Shown one piece after another: positions 7,557-36,848 of a stretch of 37,366 nt of DNA. The notes under the pieces are model-generated. The model did not search any database, was not told the DNA's origin, and worked only from the letters and a program-made list of their open reading frames with translations. Source of the DNA: Alphaproteobacteria bacterium (GTDB lineage: Bacteria > Pseudomonadota > Alphaproteobacteria > Bin95). The DNA lies in assembly GCA_022821735.1 (NCBI GenBank), contig JAJECZ010000193.1, forward strand, positions 1-37,366, given 5' to 3'. The position numbers and the translations under genes were made by a program. Positions within the stretch are counted from its first letter, which is position 1, and each line of letters opens with the position of its first letter.

Positions 7557-8249
7557 TCAGAGCAGCGAGACCGGCTCGACGCACCGCGGATCGTCGTTGG
7601 CGGGCCGGTTGACGTGCGTGCTCACCGGCCAGGCCGTCATGGCGTCCGCGGGACACGGATCGAGAGGAACCTCCCCACCCGCGAGCCAGGCGTCCCAGGC
7701 GTCCGGCGGCAGGATGACCGGCATGCGGCCGTGGACCGGCGCGACCGTCCCGTTGGCGGCGGTGGTGAGGATGGTGCAGGTCTCGACCGCATCGCCGGGG
7801 CTGCGCTCGGCGAGCGATCCGGTGAGCGCCGCGCCCTCCGGGACCGTCCAGCGTTCCCACAGGCCGGCGAAGGCGAAGGGCGCGCCGTCCCGCAACCCGA
7901 ACAGCCAGGGCTGGCGGGTCCCGCCGTTGCGCCGCCACTCGTAGAAGCCGTCGGCCGGGATCAGGCAGCGCCGGTGCCGGAAGGCCGATCGGAAGGAAGG
8001 CTTCTCCGCCGCCGTCTCGGACCGCGCGTTGATGAGCTTGTGGCCGATCACGTGGTCCCTGGCCCAGGCGGGTATCAACCCCCACCGGAGCATGGCGAGC
8101 GTGCGGCCATGCGGTGCGGCGCGCACGACCGCGACGTCCTGGCTGGGCGCGATGTTGTAGCGGGGCCGCAGGTTGAGCGGCGCGCCGATGAGGTCCATCA
8201 GCTCATGCAGCTCCCTCCACGAGAGCCTCTGGGTGAACCGGCCGCACAT
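7557..8249 (-). CDS. SOS response-associated peptidase (SRAP, YedK/HMCES family)
   Basis: A 230-residue SRAP protein. Members crosslink covalently to abasic sites in single-stranded DNA through the N-terminal cysteine and shield them from breakage. All key residues are present: Cys2 (exposed after Met removal, MCGRF), Asn74 in INARSET, Glu104 in GFYEW, and His173 in HGRMPVIL. The RPRYNIAPSQ and LRWGLIPAWA motifs are also intact, and the length is normal for the family. The start is fixed by the obligatory MCGR. A perfect GTTC-N7-GTTC LexA box lies 42 bases upstream, so SOS control is very likely. Protection of single-stranded DNA during conjugative transfer is a reasonable role for a copy on a mobile element (inference). 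Confidence 0.97.
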   Translation of the reverse strand: MCGRFTQRLSWRELHELMDLIGAPLNLRPRYNIAPSQDVAVVRAAPHGRTLAMLRWGLIPAWARDHVIGHKLINARSETAAEKPSFRSAFRHRRCLIPADGFYEWRRNGGTRQPWLFGLRDGAPFAFAGLWERWTVPEGAALTGSLAERSPGDAVETCTILTTAANGTVAPVHGRMPVILPPDAWDAWLAGGEVPLDPCPADAMTAWPVSTHVNRPANDDPRCVEPVSLL

Positions 8250-8290
8250 GCCAGCGACATTAGCCGCATCGGCGTCGGTTTGTCATTATT

Positions 8291-8305
8291 GTTCTTCTAT
8301 TGTTC
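8291..8305. promoter_or_regulatory. LexA box (alphaproteobacterial GTTC-N7-GTTC)
   Basis: GTTC at 8291-8294 and GTTC at 8302-8305 are separated by exactly seven bases (TTCTATT). This direct-repeat arrangement is the known LexA operator of alphaproteobacteria. It sits between the divergent SRAP gene (start 8249) and a small plus-strand gene (start 8316 or later), in an AT-rich patch that stands out from the GC-rich surroundings. Regulation of SRAP fits its SOS role; control of the plus-strand gene is possible. Confidence 0.85.
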
Positions 8306-8315
8306 TTATGCCACC

Positions 8316-8582
8316 ATGCAAGCCATGGAGAGAAAACACACCATTCCGGTCTCGCGGGAGGACCTGGTGTTCTCGGTCGACATGGCGCTGCGCAAGGCGG
8401 AGCGCTTCTGGCCGAAGAAGCGCGGCCCCGGCGACCACGACCGTCTCAGGCCCTTTGCCGAGATGATCGTGGACCATCTCGAGCTGTGCGGCATGCGCTG
8501 CTTCAGGAGGCCCCGCGGACCCGGCCACAGCACGCCCGATCCCTGGGCCACGCCGCGAACGGACGGCGGCGGGGACGGCTGA
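8316..8582 (+). CDS. Small orphan protein divergent from SRAP
   Basis: A plus-strand frame of 88 residues from ATG 8316 (MQAMERKHTIPVSREDLVFS...) to TGA 8580-8582. A second in-frame ATG at 8325 is equally possible. A GTG near 8367 with GGGAGGA ahead of it has the best ribosome-binding site but would remove the charged N-terminus. The core (VDMALRKAERFWPKKRGPGDHDRLRPFAEMIVDHLELCGMRCFRRP) looks like two amphipathic helices, and the tail is Pro/Gly-rich. The LexA box ends only 10 bases before the first ATG, so either the transcript has a very short leader or translation starts further in. Family not recognised. It converges with radC, 16 bases away. Confidence 0.55.
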   Translation: MQAMERKHTIPVSREDLVFSVDMALRKAERFWPKKRGPGDHDRLRPFAEMIVDHLELCGMRCFRRPRGPGHSTPDPWATPRTDGGGDG

Positions 8583-19524: not shown

Positions 19525-20907
19525 TTGGATGCAGCTAGGGCGCAGCGAATCTTCAGCGACCTCCAAGGCGTATCCGTCGGCGGATGGATTGTAAGCCGGT
19601 ACATCGGCCATGGTGGATCAGCAGTCGTCTTGGAAGGTCGCCGAGGAGGTGTTGTCTCTGCATTAAAGTTGATCGACCCCGAACTTGTTGAACGATTTGG
19701 GAAAGAACGACAAATAGCTCGCATTCGCCGAGAAGGTGAGCTAATTGCACACGACAATCCATATTTGGTTAAAATATACGATGCCAACGTGTGTTTAGAG
19801 ACCGACTACCTTTATGTGGCCATGGAATTGCTAGAAACCCCAACCCTGACAGACTTGATTCCTGATTTCCCTCGTGACAAAATTCTCCCTATACTTGAAC
19901 AAGTAGCTCATGCCGCCAAATACCTGGAAGCGAAAAATTTTGCTCATAGAGACATTAAACCGGATAACGTTTCAATCACCGCAGATTACAAGACAGCTAA
20001 ACTTCTTGATCTTGGCATTATTCGTCCCGTGCTAATCGAGAACACCGGCAACGTTACTGAAGATGCCTTTATTGGTACCACTCGGTACAGCTCTCCAGAA
20101 TACTTAACTCGTGAAGGAGATGGGGACAGCCCATGCCGCTGGCGCTCCTTAACCTTCTATCAACTAGGAGCGCTTCTACACGACATGATAATGAGGCGAC
20201 CGCTTTTTCATGACATTGATCACCCCCGAACCCGGCTCACTGACGCGGTCCGCTACACTACACCCGCAATCGAGTGTGCCGAGGTACACCCTAGGCTTGT
20301 GTCTCTAGCGAAGTGTTGTTTGCACAAGAACTGGCGTCTTCGATTAAATCTAGTAACTTGGGACGCCTTTTCAACGAATCCCAGGGCAATTGATGCTCGT
20401 TCGGCGAAACAGAGGGTACTCGACCGCGTTGAGGCGGGACGAGGCTCTGCCGCTGAGCCGGAAACGCCGGTAGCAGTGCGTTCTCAAAGGAGTGTAGTGG
20501 CGGGCATTCGTGCTCATATGGCCAATACCATTCATCAATCTTGTACAGAGTCTGGGGCTTTTCCGCCCATCGCGATCAATGATCTGGGAGACCCTGATCA
20601 ACCATGGCTCATCATGCGCGCTGGCCCTTCCCAACAACACGCATTGGCGGATGTTCTGATTGTCGGGTTTCTTCTAGAAGTCCTCGATGAGACTGGCGTG
20701 TACGTTCGGATTAGCGCAGTATCAGCTCTCGGAGAGTCTCAGTTTCATGCTGAAATGCCGGAGCTTTTGCAGGTCTACTCGGGTGAAGTGACGTCGCCGC
20801 AACTACGATCCGAAGTTGACAGCTATATGTTTCTGGCTTTCGATCATGCCCAGAGAAGTATTACTCATCGTGAGTCGAATGTGCTGTCACTAGAGGTGCC
20901 GCAATGA
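19525..20907 (+). CDS. Serine/threonine protein kinase with unknown C-terminal domain
   Basis: A 460-residue protein with a complete eukaryote-like kinase domain: glycine loop GHGGSAVV (29-36), catalytic lysine Lys48 (ALKLI), catalytic loop HRDIKPDN (141-148), DLG at 162-164 in place of DFG, and activation-segment end GTTRYSSPEY. All residues needed for phosphotransfer are present, so it should be active. No transmembrane segment or PASTA repeats follow. Instead there are about 150 C-terminal residues (from about 310) of a domain I do not recognise. The first codon appears to be TTG 19525 with AGGAACC upstream; ATG is not available. The gene overlaps the helicase gene by ATGA. Codon use is much less GC-rich than in the left block, which indicates a separate origin. 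A regulatory or toxic role in phage defence is an inference. Confidence 0.9.
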   Translation: MDAARAQRIFSDLQGVSVGGWIVSRYIGHGGSAVVLEGRRGGVVSALKLIDPELVERFGKERQIARIRREGELIAHDNPYLVKIYDANVCLETDYLYVAMELLETPTLTDLIPDFPRDKILPILEQVAHAAKYLEAKNFAHRDIKPDNVSITADYKTAKLLDLGIIRPVLIENTGNVTEDAFIGTTRYSSPEYLTREGDGDSPCRWRSLTFYQLGALLHDMIMRRPLFHDIDHPRTRLTDAVRYTTPAIECAEVHPRLVSLAKCCLHKNWRLRLNLVTWDAFSTNPRAIDARSAKQRVLDRVEAGRGSAAEPETPVAVRSQRSVVAGIRAHMANTIHQSCTESGAFPPIAINDLGDPDQPWLIMRAGPSQQHALADVLIVGFLLEVLDETGVYVRISAVSALGESQFHAEMPELLQVYSGEVTSPQLRSEVDSYMFLAFDHAQRSITHRESNVLSLEVPQ

Positions 20908-22073
20908 CAAATGTATTCGAAACCTGGTGGCGTGAGCCTTCGGAACTAGACCACGAGCAGGGGAATGTTATTTCTCTACCACCGGATGGCAGTTATCTTG
21001 TGAAGGGCCCACCGGGCAGCGGGAAGACAAACCTCCTGCTTCTTCGGGCCAATTACGTCACACTCAGGGAACATTCTAATCTTGTGGTTGTAACGTTCAA
21101 CCGGACGTTGAGGGAGTTTATTCAATCTGGTGCCCAAAGGTACTCTTTTGAGCCAAACCGCATTGTGACAGTAAGGCAGTTTTTCAACGAGCTGCTAAAG
21201 GAGGCAAACCACAGCTATGAAGAGGCTGGAGATTTCGGAGAGATGCGGCGGGCTAGGTTGGAAGCTGTTCAGGAGATCGTAGCTAATAGAGGTGGCGCAA
21301 TTTTTGATGTAATCTTGCTGGATGAGGCACAAGACTATGTGTCTGGCGAGATAGAGGTGTTTCGGTCACTTTGCCATGATCTGTTTATGGTAGCGGATTC
21401 TCGGCAACAAATATATCCAGGTGATACGGATATGGGGTTTCTTGAAGATAAGGTTGATGAGCAAATCGAGTTGACGCGTCATTATCGGAACGGTTTGCCT
21501 ATATGTCAAGTCGCGGACGGAATTGGAGGCACGTTCAGTCGCCCCTATACAGCGATTTCACCAACATGCAATTACAATTCTCCGGACCTTCAACCATCAG
21601 TGGAGATTTTTCGCGGAAACTTTGATACACAATGCGAAGAGATAGCTCGCCGGCTACAGAACCAACGAAGAGCGTACCCGGAGGCCGTTCTCGGAGTAAT
21701 TTGCCCGCGACTTAGCGAGGTGAGCCGTATCAGTGAGTTCCTGTCGCGGACGGAGTTGGCGGATCTGGTGTGTGTCCAAACAAGGGAGGATGGGTATCAA
21801 CCGGTGGATCCGAGCAAGCCAATCTGGGTGTCCACGGTGCATAGCGCGAAGGGCTTGGAATTTCGAGCATTGCACTTCGCATCTGCTGAAATCGTCACCC
21901 ATTTTGGCGCGGAACAGAAACGCTTGACCTACACCGCTGTGACTAGGGCGAAGACGGCGCTGAATGTCTATCATGACAGAGCGTTGCCGGGGTACTTTGA
22001 CGCAGCGTTGAATGCTGTTCGACCAGTTGCGAGGCCGAACGCGGATATCGGGGTCGCTTTTGGCACGAAGTGA
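20904..22073 (+). CDS. Compact UvrD/Rep-like SF1 helicase
   Basis: A 389-residue SF1 ATPase. Motifs in order: GPPGSGKT (35-42, Walker A), VVVTFNRTL (Ia), DVILLDEAQD (135-144, Walker B), FMVADSRQQIYPG (161-173, motif III), LTRHYRNG (190-197, motif IV), VSTVHSAKGLEF (309-320, motif V) and LTYTAVTRAK (341-350, motif VI). Full-length UvrD has about 700 residues; this protein keeps the two RecA cores but has almost no 1B/2B insertions. It may act as an ATP-dependent DNA sensor or remodeller rather than a processive helicase (inference). No nuclease domain is fused. Its start overlaps the kinase stop by 4 bases, so the two are made together. Confidence 0.93.
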   Translation: MTNVFETWWREPSELDHEQGNVISLPPDGSYLVKGPPGSGKTNLLLLRANYVTLREHSNLVVVTFNRTLREFIQSGAQRYSFEPNRIVTVRQFFNELLKEANHSYEEAGDFGEMRRARLEAVQEIVANRGGAIFDVILLDEAQDYVSGEIEVFRSLCHDLFMVADSRQQIYPGDTDMGFLEDKVDEQIELTRHYRNGLPICQVADGIGGTFSRPYTAISPTCNYNSPDLQPSVEIFRGNFDTQCEEIARRLQNQRRAYPEAVLGVICPRLSEVSRISEFLSRTELADLVCVQTREDGYQPVDPSKPIWVSTVHSAKGLEFRALHFASAEIVTHFGAEQKRLTYTAVTRAKTALNVYHDRALPGYFDAALNAVRPVARPNADIGVAFGTK

Positions 22074-23409
22074 AACATACTGGGTGGCGGACTTAAGCCG
22101 CGAAGACATCGTTGAGGTTGCTAGGGGAGGCCCTGCGAACCCGGTGCGAGTGCCTGCCTCGCAGATCCCTAGAATGGATGCGGGACCAGACGGGGCATTG
22201 GCGGTATGGCGTGCAGTATCCAAAGGTGAGCTCGGTTGCCTGCCCCAAGTCATTATTGCAGACCAAGGAGTTCTTGAGGACTTCACCGCGTGGGCAGCGA
22301 CCTATTTCCCAAGCTTGGGTCCCCTAAGTGCCCAAACCCGGTTGCTGACGCCAACGGTCTTGCGAGAGGCGCGTAGGAGAGAGAGCGCGACCAACTGGAG
22401 AAGGCTAGCGGCGTGCGCGGTGGCGCTCTGCTTTGGGGAGGTACTAAGTTATACAGATCAGTCCAGACGAGCGACGGATATTACCTTTATCATGTGCCGG
22501 AGTACACTTTCCTTTACCTTGATACGCAGTGCAATACTGGGTTTTCAACCAAGTAGAATAAAGGAAATAGCGCAATCATGGAGAAGTGTTAGGAGTAGGC
22601 TAGGTCAGTCCACTAACGTGGAGTCTTCACAGCTCGTTCAAGAAATTATATTTGACTTGGCCAAGAAGGCCGAGGTGGGCACAACAGCAAAAGGAAGGGC
22701 ACTGCTGGGTTACGATCTCGATGTGCCTTCAATTCTTGGTAGATATGGCGTATATGGCGTTGGTAATGAAGGGCCTTTATTTTCTAGCCGGCAAAAGCAT
22801 GAACGAAGCCTGACTGCGGAGGAAAGGGTCGAAATATTTGATCGTGTGAGCACGGCGCTGGTGCATGAAGGAGGGCGGGGAGATCTAGAGAAAGGGTTGA
22901 TCTTGGCGACTCTGGCATACTGGTGCAGAGCAGGCTTTCCCCAGCAGTTAGCGATTATGGCGCCCTATCAGGAGGTGTTTCCGCAAAGCACCATATGGTT
23001 AGCCGCGCTACAGCAAGAAAGCGCAAAATCGGATGCGCTAGCGATTGGAGAAGGGATTGGCTGGCGTTTGGCTAGGGAGTTATTTCGCGCCGGGGATGTA
23101 TTTGCCACGCCAAGTTGCGATATATCGGAATTGGAGCTCGAGGTGTTGATGAGAGGAAGCAACTTCAAAGGCTTGACGACTGCCTCGGATAGAGCCCGAC
23201 TGGAAGTGGAATTGTTTCCAGGGGTTACAACGGTTGTGAGAACCGAACACTACTCGGTTCAAAGTCCGGGTGAGGTGCCGATAACTGGCAACACTCTTCA
23301 TAGTGCTTTCGAAGAAAAAGAAAGAGAGAGGGCATTGAAGTCAGTGGAGAGTTCGTTACAGAGAGCCGTTAGGGATATTCAAAGGTTGCGGAGACAAAAA
23401 AGAAGGTAG
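22012..23409 (+). CDS. Unknown protein, third member of the kinase-helicase cassette
   Basis: An open frame overlaps the end of the helicase gene; ATG 22012 gives 465 residues. A TTG at 22060 (LARSETYWVADLSRED) or a GTG near 22081 are other starts that reduce the overlap, and I cannot decide. No known motif was found. The central part has hydrophobic helices (WRRLAACAVALCFGEVLSY, TLIRSAILGF), then a mixed region with a conserved-looking GRYGVYGVGNEGPLF. The C-terminal 35 residues are a charged coiled coil with a basic end (EEKERERALKSVESSLQRAVRDIQRLRRQKRR). It is AT-richer than the backbone, like its two partners. It is the best candidate for the effector or specificity factor of the cassette. 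Confidence 0.8.
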   Translation: MLFDQLRGRTRISGSLLARSETYWVADLSREDIVEVARGGPANPVRVPASQIPRMDAGPDGALAVWRAVSKGELGCLPQVIIADQGVLEDFTAWAATYFPSLGPLSAQTRLLTPTVLREARRRESATNWRRLAACAVALCFGEVLSYTDQSRRATDITFIMCRSTLSFTLIRSAILGFQPSRIKEIAQSWRSVRSRLGQSTNVESSQLVQEIIFDLAKKAEVGTTAKGRALLGYDLDVPSILGRYGVYGVGNEGPLFSSRQKHERSLTAEERVEIFDRVSTALVHEGGRGDLEKGLILATLAYWCRAGFPQQLAIMAPYQEVFPQSTIWLAALQQESAKSDALAIGEGIGWRLARELFRAGDVFATPSCDISELELEVLMRGSNFKGLTTASDRARLEVELFPGVTTVVRTEHYSVQSPGEVPITGNTLHSAFEEKERERALKSVESSLQRAVRDIQRLRRQKRR

Positions 23410-23537
23410 AGCGGTGTGGGTGTCACCCGGCTCATGGCCTTGACCCCTCAGAATCCATTGGGAGCGATTGCTTGTGGATGCTGATCGGCGTCGAAATAGC
23501 GCGCCGAACAACAAGGGCTGCATTATGCGGTCAAGTA

Positions 23538-24458
23538 TCAACTTTTACCCAGAACATCGGTCAGCTTTTGCGCCTTCTGCAGGCTTGCGAACGACGTGTA
23601 GCGAGGGCTCTGCATGGCACCCTGCGGAGCGTTTCCGTAGGGAATAGGCCCGATAGGCTTGGCGCTCTCCGAAAACACAACCTTGTACTTTCCGCCTTCG
23701 CCATAGGGCTCGATACGGGAGACAGGGGCGTAGTGCGTGATGGCGGAAACAGGCTGCGTGCGATATGCGGCGATGTATTTGATCTTGTCGAGCATGCCGC
23801 CGGAGATGCGAATCGCATACCAACAGTGTTGGCCGAGGAACGTCTCCTCGAACCCGTCCTTCTGGGCCGGAACGATGATCGTGTCGCGCTTCCGGCTTGT
23901 CGGCTGTGCGCTGGACAGAGGATCGGTGGCGAACGGAGCCGCGACCGCCTTCGGGAACTCGAAGGCCCGCAGACCGACCAGAGGAAGAATCTGCAGAATC
24001 TCCTTCATGAATCCTTGGGTGTCTGCCTTCTCGGCTTCAGTCAGCGATGGCTCCTGGGGCGCGTTGCCGTTGTCGAGAAGGGAGCGCCCTGTCTCCACAC
24101 CTCGCTTGACGAGGGCATATTCGAGCCAGGTGACGTGCGCCCGGTTCAGTCCGCCGGAGGTCGAAACGAACACCGCGGCCCAATCCCAGAAGTCCTTGTC
24201 CTTGTGGTGCGAATCGATGCGCCCCTTCACGCCGTCGGCCTGCCCGATATAGAGGGTGGGCAGATCGTCATCCTCGTTGCGGTAGCCGACGAGAACGTAG
24301 ATGCCGGTGCGCTGCATTTCGCTGCGCTGGCGAACCTCGGACCAGTCGGACCTGCGAAAAACCAGCCCAAGGCCGGTCCAGTTCATGCGGTCGATCAGGC
24401 GGACCCCTTCCGGATCGCCATCAGGGACAAATATGCGGATGGTGAACGGATCAGCCAT
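23538..24458 (-). CDS. GIY-YIG nuclease-domain protein, last gene of the restriction-like operon
   Basis: A 306-residue protein. The GIY-YIG fold is intact: GIYVLVG (52-58), LYIGQADGVKGRI (69-81, with Arg80), and WLEYALVKRG with Glu113 as the metal-binding residue. The C-terminal third (MLDKIKYIAAYRTQPVSAIT followed by HYAPVSRIEPYGEGGKYKVVF) is a second domain that recurs in restriction-type proteins and may bind DNA. ATG 24458 overlaps the previous stop by one base (TAATG), so it is co-translated with the gene before it. GIY-YIG enzymes cut DNA. As the only canonical nuclease in the operon, it is the likely cleaving subunit. Confidence 0.88.
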   Translation of the reverse strand: MADPFTIRIFVPDGDPEGVRLIDRMNWTGLGLVFRRSDWSEVRQRSEMQRTGIYVLVGYRNEDDDLPTLYIGQADGVKGRIDSHHKDKDFWDWAAVFVSTSGGLNRAHVTWLEYALVKRGVETGRSLLDNGNAPQEPSLTEAEKADTQGFMKEILQILPLVGLRAFEFPKAVAAPFATDPLSSAQPTSRKRDTIIVPAQKDGFEETFLGQHCWYAIRISGGMLDKIKYIAAYRTQPVSAITHYAPVSRIEPYGEGGKYKVVFSESAKPIGPIPYGNAPQGAMQSPRYTSFASLQKAQKLTDVLGKS

Positions 24459-25648
24459 TATTGTCTCGCGACGAGAGACGCGGAACTTGCTTCGTATCGA
24501 TATTGGGTAATGGTTCCATCCCGGATCTTTTGAACTGCGTCGTCGATGACGTCGAGAGGCACCAGGAACCACTCGCGCGGCACAACCGGATTGCCGAAGC
24601 GGTCTTCGATCTCGATGTCAAGACGCGCCGGCGCGAAGATGCGGTGGATCAACTGCTCCAGCTTCGCGCGGTCGATGTTGTAGAGACTATAGGTGGCGAC
24701 GATCTGGACCTCGGCCATCAGGAACGTCGGGTCGAGCCGGGCGCCGGCGATGCGCGTTTCCACCTTCGCGGTGGTGACGCCGATTTTATGCACGAGGTCA
24801 CGGTTTTCAGCGACGAACGGAATATCCGCCTTGCTCCGCAGCACGTAGATGGTGCCGCTGGCCTCGTCGCCGTCCGCGGTCATGTCAGCAAACAGCGGAC
24901 CCGCCGACGTCTCCAGTATCCGTCTGCCCTTCTCGTCCTTGTGCAAGGCCCGCTGGAGCGAACGCCTGAGCATGTTGCTCTCGGTGCCGTTATCAAAGAT
25001 CACGCGCAGCCGCGCGTCGCGGTCGCCGTAACGCTGCGTGAACTCCTCGCCCATCTCAGCGACATAGGCTTTCTGCCCGCCAATGATGAAGAACCGGCCG
25101 GGCTCGATGTCGGCCTGGATGCCAAGGGGACGGGTTTCCCGGAGACCGGCGTCCAGTTCCTTCTGGACTTGCTCGAAGAGCGGACGGAACGTCTCGAAGT
25201 CCTCGCATTTGCTGCGGGTCGCGATCTCCTCAGCGGCGCGTTTCTCTGCGCTCGATCGCACGTGGCGGAGTTCGCCAATGTCCGGCGCGGCAGACTCGAC
25301 GCCGAGCTCCGCCAGCAAGGCGTCGTCGTCCATACCGTCCGGGGACGGGGAGGCGGTTTCGGCTGGATGGCTCAGGAGATCCTGATGGTCGAGAGAGGAT
25401 AGCAATTCCCGACATTTATCCTGCTCGCGGATACGGTCCAAACGCACCGCATAGAGACGTTCGAAGATGTCGCCGTCCTCGCTGTGGCGCGGAGCGTGGC
25501 CATGCGCCTCGACGAAACGCTGGATTTCTTCGAAGCCCGCGATGATCCTCTCTTCTTTCGGCGTGCGGCTTGCCGCCTTCTCCGGCTCGACGACGACGCC
25601 GAGGTCCGCGAGCAGGGCGTCGTCCTCGTCGGTGAACTTCCTATCCAT
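24458..25648 (-). CDS. GIY-YIG-like (T5orf172/MUG113-type) protein with duplicated acidic motif
   Basis: A 396-residue protein. The C-terminal domain (about 264-375) is the MUG113/T5orf172 branch of GIY-YIG: GTIYVLRS (265-272) replaces GIY, HKIGVT (287-292) replaces YIG, Arg299 and Glu331 (KLEQLIHRIF) are in place, and NPVVPREWFLVPLDVIDDAV closes the domain. The central domain (about 150-260) has IEPGRFFIIGGQKAYVAEMG and RDARLRVIFDNGTESNMLRR, a usual partner of this family. The N-terminal part is flexible and carries the segment DDALLADLGV at 9-18 again as DDALLAELGV at 108-117. The start overlaps the helicase stop by 8 bases. It may be a nuclease or a DNA-binding subunit. Confidence 0.85.
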   Translation of the reverse strand: MDRKFTDEDDALLADLGVVVEPEKAASRTPKEERIIAGFEEIQRFVEAHGHAPRHSEDGDIFERLYAVRLDRIREQDKCRELLSSLDHQDLLSHPAETASPSPDGMDDDALLAELGVESAAPDIGELRHVRSSAEKRAAEEIATRSKCEDFETFRPLFEQVQKELDAGLRETRPLGIQADIEPGRFFIIGGQKAYVAEMGEEFTQRYGDRDARLRVIFDNGTESNMLRRSLQRALHKDEKGRRILETSAGPLFADMTADGDEASGTIYVLRSKADIPFVAENRDLVHKIGVTTAKVETRIAGARLDPTFLMAEVQIVATYSLYNIDRAKLEQLIHRIFAPARLDIEIEDRFGNPVVPREWFLVPLDVIDDAVQKIRDGTITQYRYEASSASLVARQ

Positions 25649-27686
25649 CGGCGGCCGCAGCCTTCATGCGGGCGAGGAACGCCACGCCCTCTGCCATGCG
25701 CTTCTCCCATGGATCCGCTGACGTGATCGACGGCAGGCGGCCGCGCTCCTGCTTGAACCGGAGGGCTCGCCGCGCGAGGTCGCGCGCCTCCTCCGGAGTG
25801 AGTTGGATTTTCTTCGCCGTGATGATGGCGGCGACCTGTTTCAGGCTCTCCTCGCTCATCGCTTTGGCCAGGATCGCGTAGGCCTCGCCGAAGGGGTTGA
25901 TCCTGTCGATCAGGTCGATTTCGAGGTCGCGCACGTCCATGGCGAATTTCCGGACACCGTCGATCAGCGCGGTGCCGCCGTTCGACTGTGCCTGCGGCTC
26001 ATCGAGCACGGCCTCCTTCGCCTTCTGGGTCAGGTTCAGCGCGGCGATGGCGTGCTGGCGAACCGCCTCCCGGTCTTCTTCGGAGAGTTCGGGATATCGA
26101 TCCGTGACGATCTTGCCCATACGGACCTGGGTCAGTTCCTCAGGCACGAGTTCCTCGTCGAACAGCCCGCGCTCTACGGAAGTCCTGTCCTGCGCGAACG
26201 CAGCGATCACCTCGTTCAGATCCTCCCGGCAGATGCGCTCAGCCTCCTTGCCCTTCGGTGCCACCAGTCCCTTGATCTCGATGTGGAACTGGCCGGTATC
26301 GTGATTGAAACCGACATTGCACTTCTCCGGGTCGTAACCTTCGTCGCCGTAGTCGGCGCCCTCGACCGGACCGCTTTCCGGTCTCTTCGGCGTGAAGTTG
26401 AAACGGGGCGCGAGCACCTGCTCCATCAACAGGCTCGCCGCGATAGCCTTGAGCGTATCGTTCACGGCCTCGGTGACCGCCTCTTCCGAGGCGTCGGGCT
26501 CGGCGATCAGGTTGGTGAAGCGGGCGCGGGCCTTACCAGGCGCATCGCGGGTCGCGCGGCCGATGATCTGCACGATCTCGGTCAGGCTGGAGCGGTAGCC
26601 CACCGTCAGCGCGTGATTGCACCAGATCCAGTCGAAGCCCTCCTTGGCCATGCCGAGGGCGACGATGATGTCGACATGGTCGCGGTCGCTCATCCGGTCC
26701 GTGTCCCGGAGCGCGGCAGCGACCGGCTCCCGCCTCACAGGGTCATCGTCGACCAAGTCAGCGATCCGCAGAATGCGGCCTCCGGGCATCCTGACCAGCT
26801 GAAATCCGGTCGTCGCGTCCGTGCCTTCCCACTCGCCCAGCTCCTCGATGATGTGCTCCACCTCACGAATCTTGTCCTTGGTGCTCTCGCGCGAATTGAC
26901 GCTGGGGATGTGGATGATCGTCTTCTCGCCCGGATCGAGCACCCGCAGGATGTCGTCGGCATAGTTCCCTGTGTAGAAGAAATAACCGATGTCGAGCCGC
27001 TTCAGATACTCATAGCCGTTGAGCTGCTCGTAGTAGGTATATGTGACGGTCTCGAACCGCGCCTCGTCGTGGGGCATAAGCACGGGCTGGGCATCGCCCC
27101 GAAAGTACGATCCCGTCATGGCCACGATATGTGTCCGGTCGCGGGCAATGAGCTGTCCGACATGCTCGCCCAGCCGATTGTCGGGATTGGCCGAGACGTG
27201 GTGGAACTCGTCGACCGCGATCAGTCGGCCGTCGAAAGCATCCGCGCCGAACCGTTCCATGGCGAAGCGGAAGGTGGCGTGGGTGCATACCAGGACGCGG
27301 TCATCGCTCTTGAGAAAGGTCTTGACGGAATTGACCTTGCCGCCGTCCGTGCCCGGAGCGTTGCAGAGGTTCCATTTCGGGGCAACGGTCCAGTCGGCCC
27401 AGAAACCGAACTCGCGCAACGGCGCGTCAGCGAAGCTCGCCCCTATGGTCCTCTCGGGCACGACAATGATTGCCTGACGAAGGCCCTGGTTGTGCAGTTT
27501 GTCGAGCGCGATGAACATCAGCGCCCGGCTCTTGCCCGATGCCGGTGGCGACTTGATCAGGAGGTACTGCTCGCCGCGCTTCTCCCACGCCCTCTCCTGC
27601 ATCGGGCGCATGCCGAGTTCGTTGGATCGGGTGGAACTGCCGCTGCAGGCGTACGTGACGGAAACGGAGGGGGCGCTTTCGTTCAT
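25641..27686 (-). CDS. SF2 DEAD/DEAH-type helicase of the restriction-like operon
   Basis: A 681-residue helicase. SPPASGKS (46-53) is Walker A, VVPERTIG is motif Ia, VDEFHH (158-163) is a DEAH-like motif II, MTGSYFRGD is motif III, ALGMAKEGFDW is motif V, and QIIGRATRDAPGKAR is motif VI with the arginine finger. This resembles the helicase of type I/III restriction complexes, without a fused nuclease. About 250 C-terminal residues are helical and probably bind partners. The start at ATG 27686 is set by the ATGA overlap with the preceding gene; upstream in-frame ATGs lie inside that gene. Its tight coupling to a methyltransferase and GIY-YIG genes indicates a translocating subunit of a multi-protein restriction system. 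Confidence 0.92.
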   Translation of the reverse strand: MNESAPSVSVTYACSGSSTRSNELGMRPMQERAWEKRGEQYLLIKSPPASGKSRALMFIALDKLHNQGLRQAIIVVPERTIGASFADAPLREFGFWADWTVAPKWNLCNAPGTDGGKVNSVKTFLKSDDRVLVCTHATFRFAMERFGADAFDGRLIAVDEFHHVSANPDNRLGEHVGQLIARDRTHIVAMTGSYFRGDAQPVLMPHDEARFETVTYTYYEQLNGYEYLKRLDIGYFFYTGNYADDILRVLDPGEKTIIHIPSVNSRESTKDKIREVEHIIEELGEWEGTDATTGFQLVRMPGGRILRIADLVDDDPVRREPVAAALRDTDRMSDRDHVDIIVALGMAKEGFDWIWCNHALTVGYRSSLTEIVQIIGRATRDAPGKARARFTNLIAEPDASEEAVTEAVNDTLKAIAASLLMEQVLAPRFNFTPKRPESGPVEGADYGDEGYDPEKCNVGFNHDTGQFHIEIKGLVAPKGKEAERICREDLNEVIAAFAQDRTSVERGLFDEELVPEELTQVRMGKIVTDRYPELSEEDREAVRQHAIAALNLTQKAKEAVLDEPQAQSNGGTALIDGVRKFAMDVRDLEIDLIDRINPFGEAYAILAKAMSEESLKQVAAIITAKKIQLTPEEARDLARRALRFKQERGRLPSITSADPWEKRMAEGVAFLARMKAAAADG

Positions 27687-28543
27687 GCGGGCCTGACCCT
27701 CCGGTCGAAGCGGCGAAGGAACAGGCGTGCCGTCACGAGCGAAATCTGAAGCCTGAAGGTTGCATCTTCTTCCTCGGACAGGCCCGGATGTCCGCCATGG
27801 GGATGCATTCTGCTCATCAACCCCTGAACGTATTGTGGCTTTTGGTTGTTGGGATTCCACTCGTTGTAGTCGATGAGCAGGAACGGTGGCTGAAGGCGGC
27901 CGAGATAGTCCCGTTTAGCCTTGCCGTCACCGCTACCAGCATAACCCAACCCGGTGGCGATTTCGTTGAGGTAACTTTCATGGAAGTTTCGCAACTCTCC
28001 GTTGGCCGATGACCACTCCCCACGTCCGAATGCTGAGAGTGCCTGAGTCAAATGCCCCTTCGCAACGGTAAGGCCGTGTCGGTTCAATAGCAGTGCAATT
28101 TCGGTTTCAGCTTCCCGGAAATCGAGTTCGGGAACGTCTGAAGGCAGCATCCGCACAAGCTGAACGGTCGTTTCCGTTTGCTCGCTTGGCCAATAGGCTT
28201 CGGAGTCGACCTCTTCCTCCGTCGTGCGAACTTCGAACCCGTCAAATCGCAAGCCTGCAACGAGCTTCCTCCAGGCAGCCGAATGTTGCATGTACTCGGC
28301 CGCCGAAATCGCGATTTCGACTACTGCGCGGCTCAAGTGTACCCGTCCACCTTCTGTCAGGACCTCAATTTCCTCCTCGCAGGCGATACGCGCCCAGTCC
28401 GCAACCCGCGCCGGTTTGCTCGACGCTCTGCACCTTCCTGCTATACCCCACTCGACCTCCAGCACCTCCATGGCGCCGTGTGACTGGAAACTCGAAACGA
28501 CCTCGGCAGCAGCGACGACGGTCATGCGACTGAACTCGCTCAT
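27683..28543 (-). CDS. Unknown 286-aa protein coupled to methyltransferase and helicase
   Basis: 286 residues, coupled by ATGA to the methyltransferase upstream and to the helicase downstream. The N-terminal half is acidic (EEEIEVLTEGGRVHLSRAVVEIAI). The C-terminal half reads as a helical bundle: GELRNFHESYLNEIATGLGY, LIDYNEWNPNNQKPQYVQGLMSR, HPHGGHPGLSEEEDATFRL and ISLVTARLFLRRFDRR. The GGHPGLSEEEDATFRL segment recalls the C-terminal region of Abi_C-like and HEPN-like proteins, but similarity was judged by eye only. No Rx4-6H HEPN site can be assigned with confidence. It could be a scaffold or regulatory subunit; its presence in the middle of the operon means it is probably required. Confidence 0.75.
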   Translation of the reverse strand: MSEFSRMTVVAAAEVVSSFQSHGAMEVLEVEWGIAGRCRASSKPARVADWARIACEEEIEVLTEGGRVHLSRAVVEIAISAAEYMQHSAAWRKLVAGLRFDGFEVRTTEEEVDSEAYWPSEQTETTVQLVRMLPSDVPELDFREAETEIALLLNRHGLTVAKGHLTQALSAFGRGEWSSANGELRNFHESYLNEIATGLGYAGSGDGKAKRDYLGRLQPPFLLIDYNEWNPNNQKPQYVQGLMSRMHPHGGHPGLSEEEDATFRLQISLVTARLFLRRFDRRVRPA

Positions 28544-31293
28544 GCCGTTCCCTTCGCTTGGCTGCTCATGTCGATGTAGAGTTGGAAGAGCTTCTCCAGG
28601 CGTTCCGTGTCGTTTCGGAAGCGGCGCCCGATATAGATGCGCTCGAGAATCTCGTCGTTGCGTTCATGCGCCGCGCGCAGATCGTTCGGCATCTTCGAGG
28701 GATCGTAGAGGTCGGCGATGGTTGCCGGGAAGTGTGCCTCCCGGGTGAGCAGAATATTCTCAGCGCTGTCCGTGAGGTCGGCCTTGTTTTTCTTCGTTAG
28801 CGAGGGCACCGGAAATGTATTCCATCCGAGGACACTGGAATAGGAAAACCGCATTTCCAAACGCCCACACACTGCGCCAATCCATGCGATATGCAGTTTG
28901 GAAACAACAAGCGCCATATTCCAGAGTGGAGCATCATAAAGGGCGTAGCATTTGATAGTAGCGACCGCCCGTTCATTCATTAGGTCGCAAGGAAGATATT
29001 CTCTGTTCTCCGACGTGGTTTGAGGTACTATCATAAAATTGCTGCCAGCCGCCGTAACGTCACGAAAGCGATGAGGGGTGCCCGCCAGCAATTGCGCTGT
29101 TGTGTCAGTTAACTTTTTGCTTCTCACTTTGCGGACTGCCTGGACACGTCGCCTTATGCCTTCGATGGCGTTCGCCTCATTTAATGATTCATCATCGATC
29201 CAAAGACATACCCGCGGGATGCCACTGACCACTTCCTTCGCCCCATAAATGGGTCGAAAAAATTTCACTGCTCGGGCGTCTTCGGCGATCAAGCTACGTG
29301 CGTCGGCAGGAGACATAATTAAATCGATGGCAAAATACGGATGATTACCATTGCTCATGGGTGAAATTTCGGAAATAGGTGTCGTCTCCTTTCTTACATA
29401 GAGTTCTGGGCCCGGAATAAGGTACCCGTTGATTTCAGGGACATGTCGAATGGAGGTCTTATTATCTTCAACATCGAAGAGCCTTACAGCTTTAGCATGG
29501 CTCGCGGAAAGTCCAATAACTATGACAGTAATGCCAGCATTATTGGCAGCCAAGTTTTTCCACTTGAATGAACGATACGCGAAATGGATAGAGGCACCCA
29601 ATTGGCTCAGAAGAGGCCATAACACAGCAACTTGGCTGCCTTGGCAGATTGAATTCGTGGCGACAAGTGCTGCTGCGCCGTGAGTTTCCTTGAGGAAGAC
29701 CGCGGCCTTTAGGAACCAAGCAGTTACGTAATCGAGGTTTCCCCAGCGCTTTATAGTCCCCTTGAAGATGTGCTCAAGATCTTGTTTCTGTTCTTTCGAT
29801 TGCTTGTTGTAGCCCGAGTAAGGAGGATTTCCGCAAACATAGGTCTCGCCGCCTTCGTTCTCGAAGTCGATCTCGGCCTGATCGAGCGGTGTTTCGAACA
29901 GGTCATCGGCGGTATGCTTGACGGCGGTACCGGTAGGCGGGCAGATGTTTAGCCAGTCGAGCCGCAGCGCGTTCCCACAGGTGATCCAGTTCATGGCGTC
30001 AAGCGGAAGGAATTCCGTCAGCGCTTCCCGCTGGCCACGATGCAGCACGTCGCACTGATATTCTGCAATGACCAAGGCGAGGCGGGCAATCTCGGCCGGG
30101 AAGTCCCGCAACTCGATGCCCCGGAAGTTGGTCAGGGGAATATCCGATCGGCGCCCGCTCTCGCGCCTTCTCCTGTTGACCTCCGCCTCGATCTCGCGCA
30201 TCTCTTTGTAGGCGATGACCAGAAAGTTGCCAGAACCGCACGCTGGATCGAACACGCGGATACGAGCCATGCGGTTGCGCAGGTTTAGAAGCTTGCGAGA
30301 ATTGGTCCCGGCGTCTTCCAGTTTCTCGCGAAGATCGTCGAGGAACAGCGGATTGAGCACCTTCAGGATGTTCGGCACGCTGGTGTAGTGCATGCCGAGC
30401 GCGCCGCGCTCCTTGTCGTCGGCGACAGCCTGGATCATCGATCCGAAGATGTCCGGGTTGATCTTCTTCCAGTCGAGGTTCCCGATGTGAAGAAGATAGG
30501 ATCGCGCAATCCGGCTGAACCGAGGCACCTCCGTCGACTCCGAGAAGAGTCCTCCGTTCACATAGGGAAACGAGGCGGCCCAGCGCGGGATGTCAGCACC
30601 CTTCCGTGCCTGAGCATCCGTATTCATGGCGCGGAATATCTCGCCGATCACCTCGTGGGTGTTCGAACTGTCGGCCGCGCTCATCCACTCGATCGTATCA
30701 GTGAAGAGCCCCGATACGTTGAAGATATCGGTGTCCTCCGCGAAGAAGCAGAAGATGAGTCGCGCCATGAAGTGATTCATTTCGGGACGGCGCTCGGCAG
30801 CGCCCCATTTCGGATTCTCCTTCAGCAGTTCGACATAAAGCCGGTTCAGGCGTCCGGTCGCCTTGATGTCGAAGGCGCTCTCTCGGATCTGCTTGACGGT
30901 CGTGATGCCGGCGAGAGGCAGGAAGAAGCCGAAATATTCGGGGAAGTCCGGATAGTCGCAGACGATGACGTCGCCGCTGCTCAGCTCCTCGGCGTGGAAA
31001 TCCTCCCCGTCGGTGGCAAGGACGAACTTGGCCCTGGCGCGCGTCGTCGCCGGGCTGGCCTTGAGCTCCGCCAGAGTCGCCGCCGCCCCGCCTTTGGGAC
31101 ACACCTTGATGTGGATGTTGCTGCGCTGCAGCACGCCGCCAAGGTCGGAATTGTTCAAAGCACCGGAACGAAGCCGCTTGACCGTCGTCGTCTTGTTGCC
31201 GAAAGCCTCCAGGAACGCATAGGGAAACTCACCGCCCTCGAAGGGCCGTTCGGCGAGCGCGGATACCGCTTCTTCGATCTCAACGGCATTCAT
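28540..31293 (-). CDS. MmeI-related DNA adenine methyltransferase with a mosaic specificity region
   Basis: A 917-residue protein. SAM-binding motif I is VFDPACGSGNF (347-357), the catalytic motif is NPPYSG (489-494), and the ELRDFPAEIARLAL helix lies between. MNHFMARLIFCFFAEDTDIF (172-191) and the C-terminal LRAAHERNDEILERIY are typical of the MmeI family. The first 160 residues, where MmeI carries its D-E-x-K nuclease, hold no such site that I can find. Cleavage must then come from another subunit. Codons from about 495 to 830 (28800-29810) are clearly AT-richer than the flanks and cover the target-recognition part. Start ATG 31293 has AGGACAGGA upstream. Likely N6-adenine methylation of the host; the target is unknown. 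Confidence 0.92.
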   Translation of the reverse strand: MNAVEIEEAVSALAERPFEGGEFPYAFLEAFGNKTTTVKRLRSGALNNSDLGGVLQRSNIHIKVCPKGGAAATLAELKASPATTRARAKFVLATDGEDFHAEELSSGDVIVCDYPDFPEYFGFFLPLAGITTVKQIRESAFDIKATGRLNRLYVELLKENPKWGAAERRPEMNHFMARLIFCFFAEDTDIFNVSGLFTDTIEWMSAADSSNTHEVIGEIFRAMNTDAQARKGADIPRWAASFPYVNGGLFSESTEVPRFSRIARSYLLHIGNLDWKKINPDIFGSMIQAVADDKERGALGMHYTSVPNILKVLNPLFLDDLREKLEDAGTNSRKLLNLRNRMARIRVFDPACGSGNFLVIAYKEMREIEAEVNRRRRESGRRSDIPLTNFRGIELRDFPAEIARLALVIAEYQCDVLHRGQREALTEFLPLDAMNWITCGNALRLDWLNICPPTGTAVKHTADDLFETPLDQAEIDFENEGGETYVCGNPPYSGYNKQSKEQKQDLEHIFKGTIKRWGNLDYVTAWFLKAAVFLKETHGAAALVATNSICQGSQVAVLWPLLSQLGASIHFAYRSFKWKNLAANNAGITVIVIGLSASHAKAVRLFDVEDNKTSIRHVPEINGYLIPGPELYVRKETTPISEISPMSNGNHPYFAIDLIMSPADARSLIAEDARAVKFFRPIYGAKEVVSGIPRVCLWIDDESLNEANAIEGIRRRVQAVRKVRSKKLTDTTAQLLAGTPHRFRDVTAAGSNFMIVPQTTSENREYLPCDLMNERAVATIKCYALYDAPLWNMALVVSKLHIAWIGAVCGRLEMRFSYSSVLGWNTFPVPSLTKKNKADLTDSAENILLTREAHFPATIADLYDPSKMPNDLRAAHERNDEILERIYIGRRFRNDTERLEKLFQLYIDMSSQAKGTA

Positions 31294-31328
31294 CGATCAA
31301 ATCCTGTCCTAATCAAGGATAGGCGATT

Positions 31329-31343
31329 GGGCTTGGCAAGCCC
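31329..31343 (-). terminator. Small hairpin between fic and methyltransferase genes
   Basis: GGGCTT at 31329-31334 and AAGCCC at 31338-31343 flank a three-base loop, 80 bases past the Fic stop and 36 bases before the methyltransferase start. No U-run follows on the minus strand. It may be a weak terminator or an mRNA element. The gap of 130 bases would also have to hold the promoter of the five-gene operon if that is separate from fic. Confidence 0.35.
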
Positions 31344-31423
31344 ACTACCGGGAAGAGACTCAGGTGCCGGTGGTGTAAGAACTTGGTGTCTTTAGCAGCG
31401 CGCGGCGGGAAGGGTGGAGTCGC

Positions 31424-32509
31424 TCAGGCCCGCTCGGAAAGGAGCGCCAAGAGCGGCGGGTTGATGTAGAGGTTTTCGCGCCCCGCTTTGATCTCCTCGA
31501 GGAGGCCTTCGGCCGTGAGGGCTTTCAGGTAAATGGCGGCCGTCTGGCGCTTGGCTATATCCGCCTTGACCACGTCGCCGATCCGGCAGTAGGGATGCAC
31601 GAAGATCAGTTCCGCGAGTTCCCGGGAATAGATCCTCGGCATCCTCTGTCGAATTGCGGCGCCCGTCTCGTCGAGAAGCTCACGGATCGCACGGATTTTG
31701 GCCGTAGTCCATTCGGCTGTCGATCTGATAGCCTCGAGAATGAACAGTATCCACGTTTCCCAGGCCTGTCGGGTAGTGACCTCGAGCAGATACCGGTAGT
31801 AGAGCGCCTTGTTCCGGATGATGTGTCGGCTGAGATAGAGCACGGGTATGTCCAGCAGGCCCTTGTCGACGAGATAGAGTAGGTTCAGCACGCGTCCGGT
31901 TCGTCCGTTTCCGTCGACGAACGGGTGGATCGCCTCGAACTGATAATGCATGACGGCAAGGCGGATCAGCGGGTCGATCTCCCCATCCTCGTGAATGTAG
32001 CGCTCCCAGTTGGCCAGCTTGCTACGGAGAACGTCCTCTCCTTCCGGCGGCGTGTAGATGACCTCGTCGGTCGCATCGTTCACCAACGCCGTTCCCGGCG
32101 TGGTGCGAATGTCGAGTTCCACCCCCTTGATCGTTCGACAGACCTCGACAGCCATGGTGGTCGCAACCGGCCGCTGCCCCAGCATCTCGAAACCTCGGTG
32201 CAACGCGGTGCGGTAGCGCAGAGCTTCCTTGGTGGCAGGGTCGGCTCGACCCGCCGCGTCGTTGGCATAGCGGAACAGCCGGTCAGCCGTCGTGACGATG
32301 TTTTCGATCTCGGAACTCGCCTGCGCTTCGAGCAGGGGGATCGAGTTGATCAACATCGCTTGGTTCGGGATGAGATTCCCGGAGACGCGGAGCTCGGCCA
32401 GTGCCGCGCGCGCGGCAATGCAACTGCGGAGAATGGCCTTGGTTTCCGTTTCCGATGCCGGCGGCAGGTCCGGAAGGTCGTTGAAGGGACAGCCGGGGTC
32501 GAAGGTCAT
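31424..32509 (-). CDS. Fic-family adenylyltransferase with C-terminal winged helix
   Basis: A 361-residue Fic protein. The catalytic motif HPFVDGNGRTGR (195-206) is fully intact, so transfer of AMP to a target protein is expected. The inhibitory helix motif SSEIEN (65-70) is at the N-terminal side, as in class II Fic proteins, so it holds itself inactive. About 75 C-terminal residues (YCRIGDVVKADIAKRQTAAI, then LKALTAEGLLEEI) are a winged helix that can bind DNA. I chose ATG 32509, which has AGGA 9 bases upstream, over a TTG at 32536. Proteins of this build are common in mobile and defence regions. Whether it belongs to the restriction operon or is a stand-alone toxin-like regulator is unclear. 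Confidence 0.92.
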   Translation of the reverse strand: MTFDPGCPFNDLPDLPPASETETKAILRSCIAARAALAELRVSGNLIPNQAMLINSIPLLEAQASSEIENIVTTADRLFRYANDAAGRADPATKEALRYRTALHRGFEMLGQRPVATTMAVEVCRTIKGVELDIRTTPGTALVNDATDEVIYTPPEGEDVLRSKLANWERYIHEDGEIDPLIRLAVMHYQFEAIHPFVDGNGRTGRVLNLLYLVDKGLLDIPVLYLSRHIIRNKALYYRYLLEVTTRQAWETWILFILEAIRSTAEWTTAKIRAIRELLDETGAAIRQRMPRIYSRELAELIFVHPYCRIGDVVKADIAKRQTAAIYLKALTAEGLLEEIKAGRENLYINPPLLALLSERA

Positions 32510-32529
32510 GTTGATGTATCCTGCTTCTC

Positions 32530-32604
32530 TCGACAAATTTTCCGAACATGTCGATCCTGTCGACTTGTCGCTTCAACGTGTCGATGAAATGAGAATACAT
32601 CGAC
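32530..32604. promoter_or_regulatory. Cluster of TGTCGA half-sites upstream of fic
   Basis: TGTCGA or its complement occurs at 32530-32535 (TCGACA), 32549-32554, 32558-32563, and 32579-32584; TGTCG occurs at 32566-32570 and ATCGAC at 32599-32604. Six related copies lie within 75 bases, in the region where the fic promoter must be. This density looks like an operator array, perhaps for the Fic protein itself, which has a winged helix. Base composition here is moderate, so the clustering is unlikely to be a GC artefact. Confidence 0.5.
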
Positions 32605-32778
32605 CCAATGTCCCGTAGCAAGAAGATGGGCTGGTAATGTCGCCCACAGTTCATCGGGCTGTCCAAACTCTCTACTACGGCTGAAGAGACCGCCGAGATG
32701 CAAGCGCTGATACGACGGATGGGTTGCGCGTACCGCCGCCGCGTTGGAGCGCGAACCTGACGAAAGAGGCATCAACGT

Positions 32779-35550: not shown

Positions 35551-36848
35551 GGTTTTCGTTGCCGCTCTCTTTCGGCGCCGACCGCCAGAATCGCATCGAG
35601 CCAGGCAGGTTCGGCGCCGGCTGCGGACGCCACTTTCGCAAGGTGAACGCGTTCGTCGGGGCTAACCCGCCTGAACAGATGATCGAACAGCCCTCGATCA
35701 GAGTCCGATGCGTCAGTCCTTCCTGACTTTACGATGCGCCGAATTTCCCGGTCGACCAGCTGCTGTTTCCCATTGATTGCCGAAAGAGCGGCCCAACGTT
35801 GGAGCGTGTGAAGCAGGACCGTATGGTCTCGGTCCGAAGCGTCGTAGTGAATCGGCACGATGCCCCTTGCGCGCCAGTCCTCAAGCGCGACGGTATCGGG
35901 ATCGTCGGAACCTACGAAAATGAACCGCTCCTTGAGGTCGTCGAAGCGGCTTTCGTCCGCGGCAACTGCATTCAGGAGGTAGCGCATCGGCGGGTCGTTG
36001 GCGCTGTAGCCGACGAGAACGAGATGAAACAGTCGGGCGGCGTCGTAGATGAGGTCGGGAACGATGCGCCGCCGCAAATAGAGTTCCCCGAAATCCTGGT
36101 CGGTAAGGACCAGGTCTGAGTGGCGGGAGGGATTACGGGTCAACGCTCCGTGAATGTGGAAGACGCCGGCGAATTCCGTTCGCTTTGTCGGTCGGAGGAT
36201 CGATCCGAGCGCGTAGCTCTGCGCGGGCACCCGAAGATTGCTTGCGGCTCGCTCAAGCAAAAGGTCGAAATTGGTAGTCATGATGGTCGTCGCACCACCG
36301 CGGTCCGCTAGCCGGATGAGCGCGCGGTGGATTGGCGCCGGGCGTCCGGCGCGGGGCGCATCGGCATCGTCTGAACGCGCCGCGGTTCCTTCGAACCTCG
36401 ATGTCGCCGGCTTCGGTTTGGCCCGCGGCGGGTGAAGAATCTCGACTACCCTGCTCCTGACCTTGCTGTCTTCGCGCGTACGGCTGTCGAAACGGCGTTC
36501 CAGCATGCCGAGGACAACATCGTACTCACGAGCGAGGAAGCGTTCGACTTCCGCCGCCTGGCGATCGGTCAGAGCCGAGCAATCCGGTTTTCGCGGGCCG
36601 CTCGAATTGAGGGAGGCATTGGTCAATATCTCGCAGACGCCCGGATCGAGAGTCCGATAAACATCGAGAACGAGTTGCCGGAAATCCGGCAGCCCCGCCT
36701 GCCTGGAGATGCCGGCTCCGCATAGGAAAAGCACGTCTCCCCGCGCATGGGCCAGCAACAATCGCTCGGGGATTGCCGGCAGGTCGGGTGCCAGCGAGAT
36801 TGTCCGCTCGGCACTGTCGGGAGGCTTGTAAGGGTTTCGATCATACAT
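35547..36848 (-). CDS. SIR2-domain protein, probable NADase effector
   Basis: A 433-residue SIR2-like protein. GAGISRQAGLPDF (44-56) is the NAD-binding loop, TTNFD (191-195) carries the catalytic Asn, HIHG (231-234) the catalytic His, and VGYSANDPPMRYLL (279-292) the distal NAD-binding strand. The cysteine zinc site of true sirtuin deacetylases is absent, as in defence SIR2 proteins that hydrolyse NAD+. A Pro/Lys/Arg-rich insertion (about 138-171) is probably flexible. It is translated together with the 923-residue protein through a GTGA overlap. No ribosome-binding site precedes ATG 36848, but no better start exists. NAD+ depletion and growth arrest on infection is the expected effect. Confidence 0.9.
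   Translation of the reverse strand: MYDRNPYKPPDSAERTISLAPDLPAIPERLLLAHARGDVLFLCGAGISRQAGLPDFRQLVLDVYRTLDPGVCEILTNASLNSSGPRKPDCSALTDRQAAEVERFLAREYDVVLGMLERRFDSRTREDSKVRSRVVEILHPPRAKPKPATSRFEGTAARSDDADAPRAGRPAPIHRALIRLADRGGATTIMTTNFDLLLERAASNLRVPAQSYALGSILRPTKRTEFAGVFHIHGALTRNPSRHSDLVLTDQDFGELYLRRRIVPDLIYDAARLFHLVLVGYSANDPPMRYLLNAVAADESRFDDLKERFIFVGSDDPDTVALEDWRARGIVPIHYDASDRDHTVLLHTLQRWAALSAINGKQQLVDREIRRIVKSGRTDASDSDRGLFDHLFRRVSPDERVHLAKVASAAGAEPAWLDAILAVGAERERQRKP

Follow-up and report, generated by a model that had tools for sequence, protein, structure and literature searches.

Between an SRAP gene and a divergently oriented small gene, the stretch of DNA analysed here (37,366 nucleotides; hereafter the window) carries an exact LexA-type box. 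The box recurs at a nearly fixed distance before homologues of the small gene, an orphan, which is therefore very probably, on this comparative evidence, a newly recognised component of the SOS response to DNA damage and a strong candidate for an undescribed gene family under putative LexA control. The features of the locus are:

8291..8305, + strand: LexA box GTTC-TTCTATT-GTTC (GTTCTTCTATTGTTC), exact match; exact in 25/30 orphan homologues, 31–34 nt before the start codon.
8325..8582, + strand: orphan small gene, 85 aa plus stop, N-terminus MERKHTIPVSRED...; defined by tblastn/HMM homologues, dN/dS against three orthologues and a conserved start.
8289..8294, + strand: predicted −35 element for the orphan, TTGTTC, in overlap with the LexA box; the TT before the first GTTC is conserved, and a conserved −10 follows 17 bp on.
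8309..8317, + strand: predicted extended −10, TG-C-CACCAT, a weak match here to a family-conserved hexamer; transcript start predicted at about 8324–8325.
7557..8249, − strand: SRAP (YedK/HMCES family) gene, 230 aa; PF02586, E 8.6e-71, profile positions 1–213 of 214.
8281..8286, − strand: predicted SRAP −35, ATGACA, separated from the LexA box by 4 bp; TGACA occupies this position in 6/7 divergent SRAP–orphan loci.
8259..8264, − strand: predicted SRAP −10, GCTAAT, with a 16-bp spacer; nnTA(A/G) there in 7/7 loci; the transcript is predicted to begin about 3 nt upstream of the SRAP ATG.

Conservation of the box before orphan homologues

The box has no mismatch and is the sole GTTC-N7-GTTC found by a pattern scan of the whole window. 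A first-pass annotation of the sequence had reported this exact site between SRAP and the divergent orphan and had placed it in the only AT-rich patch for several kilobases. Both statements held: between 1 and 19.6 kb, 60-base windows of at most 45% GC occur only within 8251–8350. Taken alone, the pattern match is not significant and proves nothing, because a dinucleotide shuffle yields an expectation of 1.38 matches per window. Within the 75-bp intergenic patch, such a match arises in 0.3% of composition shuffles. The source genome holds 90 matches, the majority with GC-rich spacers and some of them repeated copies of one sequence, and the notion that each of them is an operator was rejected on these grounds. 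As far as sequence can tell, it is the comparative evidence, not the pattern, that decides whether the box is real.

An exact GTTC-N7-GTTC lies 31–34 nt before the conserved ATG in 25 of 30 members of the orphan family, all picked by protein similarity alone; same-genus homologues within this count are not independent, and the members of about 30% identity are far apart. Among the 21 members found first, 16 have the exact box 32–34 nt before the conserved ATG. Three of the other five have a box with one mismatch at that position (one of these is the second copy in the source genome, on contig C382), one has a spacer that is one base longer, and the last, on G075 C27, is the one homologue of the 30 without a box. 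All nine members fetched later (L116–L124), after the rule had been seen, have an exact box 31–34 nt before the ATG. The chance of finding a box, calculated from the genome-wide pattern frequency, is about 5e-4 per 60-bp upstream region. Distant members in G197, G310 and G056, with about 30–36% protein identity, retain the box.

Weak protein matches with E of 1e-7 to 1e-2 (L028–L031, L098–L102, L126–L127) were excluded from the box counts, as were the fragments L017, L034 and L049 and the locus L043, a near copy of L014. Among the excluded weak matches, L031 has an exact box that precedes an ATG by 43 nt, and L028 has no box with a 7-base spacer. L050 turned out to be a false match and was rejected as an orphan relative.

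The expectation of 1.38 matches for a window of this size and the 90 genomic matches, with their mostly GC-rich spacers and repeated copies, would be compatible with a chance match in an AT-rich promoter, neither gene being controlled by LexA. Since 25 of 30 homologues, among them all nine fetched later, keep the box at a fixed distance, this reading is extremely improbable.

Two members of the family show departures from a single box. At L117 (G402 C179, near 1469–1495), two overlapping LexA-type boxes have one half-site in common, forming a triple GTTC repeat (GTTCTGGTAATGTTCCTGTAGTGTTC). Genome G075 contains four orphan copies or fragments (L010, L014, L016, L017) whose boxes are imperfect or missing, which suggests repeated gain and loss of control.

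The orphan family

Comparison of the orphan with three orthologues gave dN values of 0.04–0.06 against dS values of 0.35–0.45, indicating purifying selection on the encoded protein. Orthologues from the same genus are 81–82% identical, and tblastn and HMM searches identified members in several other alphaproteobacterial families, with identity down to about 30%. A protein-similarity search also revealed the second copy in the source genome, which on contig C382 is likewise divergent from an SRAP gene. Across 385 genomes sampled from the class, 11 were positive with the first profile (E up to 0.001), and only weak matches came from a phylum-wide sample; the orphan is an accessory gene. Sampling for relatives at order level comprised 14, 9, 27 and 7 genomes.

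Searches of Pfam, NCBIfam, PHROGs and PDB sequences gave no significant match for the orphan, and collections of plasmids, phages and viruses yielded neither it nor distant relatives. The AlphaFold model (pLDDT 74, pTM 0.56) has two helices and short strands, and a Foldseek search with it against the PDB and viral models returned a best E of about 1, which is meaningless. The sequence shows no apparent membrane segment. In other families, the orphan homologues are flanked by unrelated genes, and inspection by eye of the neighbourhoods of distant members revealed no common partner gene. The only hint at a partner is SRAP, the link to which, seen in ten loci, does not extend to the family as a whole.

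Several effectors of the SOS response, including SidA, SulA, DinI, YneA and SosA, are small, single-gene, damage-inducible proteins. The orphan resembles them in kind only: a predicted two-helix protein, it differs in that no solved structure was found to match its sequence or fold. Most likely, its product plays an accessory part in DNA-damage tolerance as a small soluble protein.

Start codon and promoter

The 88-aa open reading frame initially described begins with the ATG at 8316, and the box does end 10 bases before it. In a same-genus orthologue this codon is replaced by TTG, and the ATG at 8325 is kept. Because only the latter is conserved, we assign the start of the orphan to 8325, which gives a protein of 85 aa. 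According to the first-pass annotation, the leader might be very short or the start codon might lie later. The alignment supports the later start; that the leader is absent is probable, given a conserved −10 element and no Shine-Dalgarno sequence.

When the upstream regions were aligned on the box, TTGTTC emerged at the first half-site, and a second peak of the form TGnTAnnnT was found at +18 to +26. The hexamer.A...T at +21 from the box start is present in 14 of 18 members, compared to 0–3 at other offsets. Among the nine held-out members, seven have.A...(T/C) at the −10 place and seven have TG three bases upstream of the hexamer. TTGTTC, taken as a −35 with a 17-bp spacer, fits the conserved extended −10. 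The corresponding hexamer of the window (CACCAT) is a poor match, and the promoter proposed here is modelled on the family. No Shine-Dalgarno match of more than 4 bases was found in any of the 18 homologues checked. With a −35 in the box and a −10 placed 17 bp on, transcription is predicted to start at or next to the ATG, and the orphan mRNA is probably leaderless. The overlap of promoter and box also suggests a reason for the fixed spacing between box and ATG.

In Caulobacter, 375 genes have leaderless mRNAs, and 75% of starts are without a Shine-Dalgarno sequence (PMC4117421). Leaders that do not contain this element are thus common in Alphaproteobacteria, and the orphan might be under LexA control and still have an ordinary leader, the fixed box-to-ATG distance then reflecting a compact promoter with initiation elsewhere. 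However, the sole position-conserved −10 predicts a start at the ATG, and we regard an ordinary leader as unlikely, if still a serious contender. The leaderless message that we favour would resemble those of Caulobacter dnaX and hemE in its predicted start at the AUG and in lacking a Shine-Dalgarno sequence. It would differ from them in that the position of the start codon is tied to a LexA operator.

SRAP and the assignment of the box

The gene on the other side of the box is a clear member of the SRAP/YedK/HMCES family (PF02586). Its translation starts with MCGR and contains the NARSET, GFYEW and VHGRMP motifs, Cys2 and the catalytic motifs being present. YedK, a relative of SRAP, acts on abasic sites (PMC9436759), and SRAP families have been tied to SOS genes through their genomic neighbourhoods (PMC3765255). 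In ten loci, this one included, the orphan and a divergent SRAP gene have the upstream region in common. The search for such pairs elsewhere, proposed in the first-pass annotation, uncovered a recurrent arrangement that is not family-wide.

Both the published link to SOS genes and the ten shared loci would be expected if the box were chiefly an SRAP operator and the orphan a chance passenger beside it. A conserved pair of elements also suggests an SRAP promoter abutting the box: among seven aligned divergent loci, six have TGACA at 4–5 bases from the box, and all seven have nnTA(A/G) at a constant distance from it, with a 16-bp spacer. However, orphans that have no SRAP start nearby (L041, L042, L044, L045 and those of G310, G197 and G056) keep the box at an unchanged distance from their own start. 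Conversely, for six SRAP genes from relatives without an adjoining orphan, a search within 200 bp that tolerated one mismatch revealed no box. The second divergent pair of the source genome (G000 C382:6305–7353; L015, L068) has a longer gap, and its one-mismatch box (GTTGCTGGTATGTTC) has stayed beside the orphan, which puts it about 120 bp away from the start of SRAP. An operator serving mainly SRAP is therefore improbable.

Because SRAP-less orphans keep the box and the six orphan-less SRAP genes are without it, we assign the box to the orphan, not to SRAP. This reverses the emphasis of the first-pass annotation, which had taken SRAP as the main target and listed the orphan with a 'perhaps'; its suggestion that SRAP is controlled at this locus remains plausible, with less support than control of the orphan. 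LexA bound to the box would overlap the upstream edge of the polymerase at the predicted SRAP promoter, and partial co-control of SRAP is likely for this reason. From the loci compared, SRAP would fall under the same box only in some lineages and does not appear to be a general LexA target.

Host LexA and other boxed genes

The source genome encodes LexA (contig C150; PF01726 DNA-binding and PF00717 S24 domains), and GTTCTACATTGGTTC is located 53 bp before the start of this gene. A box is also found at the start of an MmcB-like repair gene. The motif of Caulobacter LexA is GTTCN7GTTC (PMC12700426). Together with the conservation before orphan homologues, a host lexA gene with its own box upholds the original designation of the site as an alphaproteobacterial LexA box. 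The locus matches the alphaproteobacterial LexA regulon, as represented by the SOS genes of Caulobacter crescentus, in operator sequence and spacing, in the AT-rich spacer, in the single box close to the gene start and in the presence of a boxed lexA in the same genome. In contrast to that regulon, the orphan target belongs to no named family, and its box-to-start distance is nearly invariant across families.

A DUF5131 gene of the source genome (G000 C274; L058, box at 1514) is preceded by an exact box, which reads GTTCCTTACATGTTC on the other strand. This box ends 18 nt before the ATG, a short distance that is close to that of the orphan family.

Given that the window resembles a mobile or defence island (ParB, RadC, MmeI, SIR2, Fic), another regulator, such as an element-borne repressor, might read the same GTTC direct repeat. 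Such a regulator would have to be reconciled with the identical motif before the lexA, MmcB-like and DUF5131 genes of the source genome, and with the unrelated neighbours of homologues in other families, which renders it very improbable. Host LexA is the regulator that we consider to act on the box.

Proposed mechanism

We consider it highly probable that the following account, taken as a whole, is correct. The box, its conservation and fixed spacing, coding selection on the orphan and a boxed lexA in the same genome are observed; occupancy by LexA, use of the promoter, leaderless transcription, co-control of SRAP and the role of the protein are inferred from them. In the undamaged cell, host LexA bound at 8291–8305 would cover the −35 element TTGTTC of a sigma-70-type promoter and keep the 85-aa orphan switched off. 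Upon DNA damage, self-cleavage of LexA on RecA filaments would free the site, and RNA polymerase could then use TTGTTC and the extended −10 located 17 bp downstream, with initiation at the A of ATG 8325 or directly beside it. The resulting mRNA would be leaderless or nearly so and would be translated without a Shine-Dalgarno sequence. At this and nine other loci, where a divergent SRAP gene occupies the same region (the predicted SRAP −35 lying 3–4 bp from the box in the aligned seven), LexA on the box should hinder SRAP as well, probably less tightly. The orphan product would assist damage tolerance as a small soluble accessory.

More tentatively, the orphan may represent a widely scattered, undescribed family in Alphaproteobacteria whose small SOS proteins are translated from leaderless mRNAs gated by LexA, and one branch of this family might work with SRAP on abasic or single-stranded DNA damage. 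The analysis would add a conserved, unnamed gene family to the alphaproteobacterial SOS response, in the form of a gene that is directly testable, and it revises the earlier attribution of the box to the SRAP gene. With its rigid geometry of operator, promoter and start codon, the arrangement is compact and would place a leaderless message under LexA gating.

Defence genes and transposases

Downstream of the orphan locus, positions 20904–36848 of the window resemble a defence island, with a UvrD-like helicase, a T5orf172/MUG113 protein, a DEAD/ResIII helicase, an MmeI-type restriction-modification protein, a SoFic-like Fic protein and a SIR2-like protein. Elsewhere in the same genome, IS630-like transposase genes lie 3' of exact GTTC-N7-GTTC sites with AT spacers (GTTCTATATAAGTTC, GTTCTATATTGGTTC, GTTCTATATATGTTC, GTTCTTTTATTGTTC) at several loci; those examined were L053, L054, L055, L056, L059 and L061 (contigs C150, C232, C251, C252, C321 and C451). 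In some of them, a TTGAC-like −35 is found about 17 bp before a TATA-like core inside the GTTC-N7-GTTC site. The box may thus overlap the −10 element at these loci, and SOS-controlled transposition of the IS630-like elements is possible.
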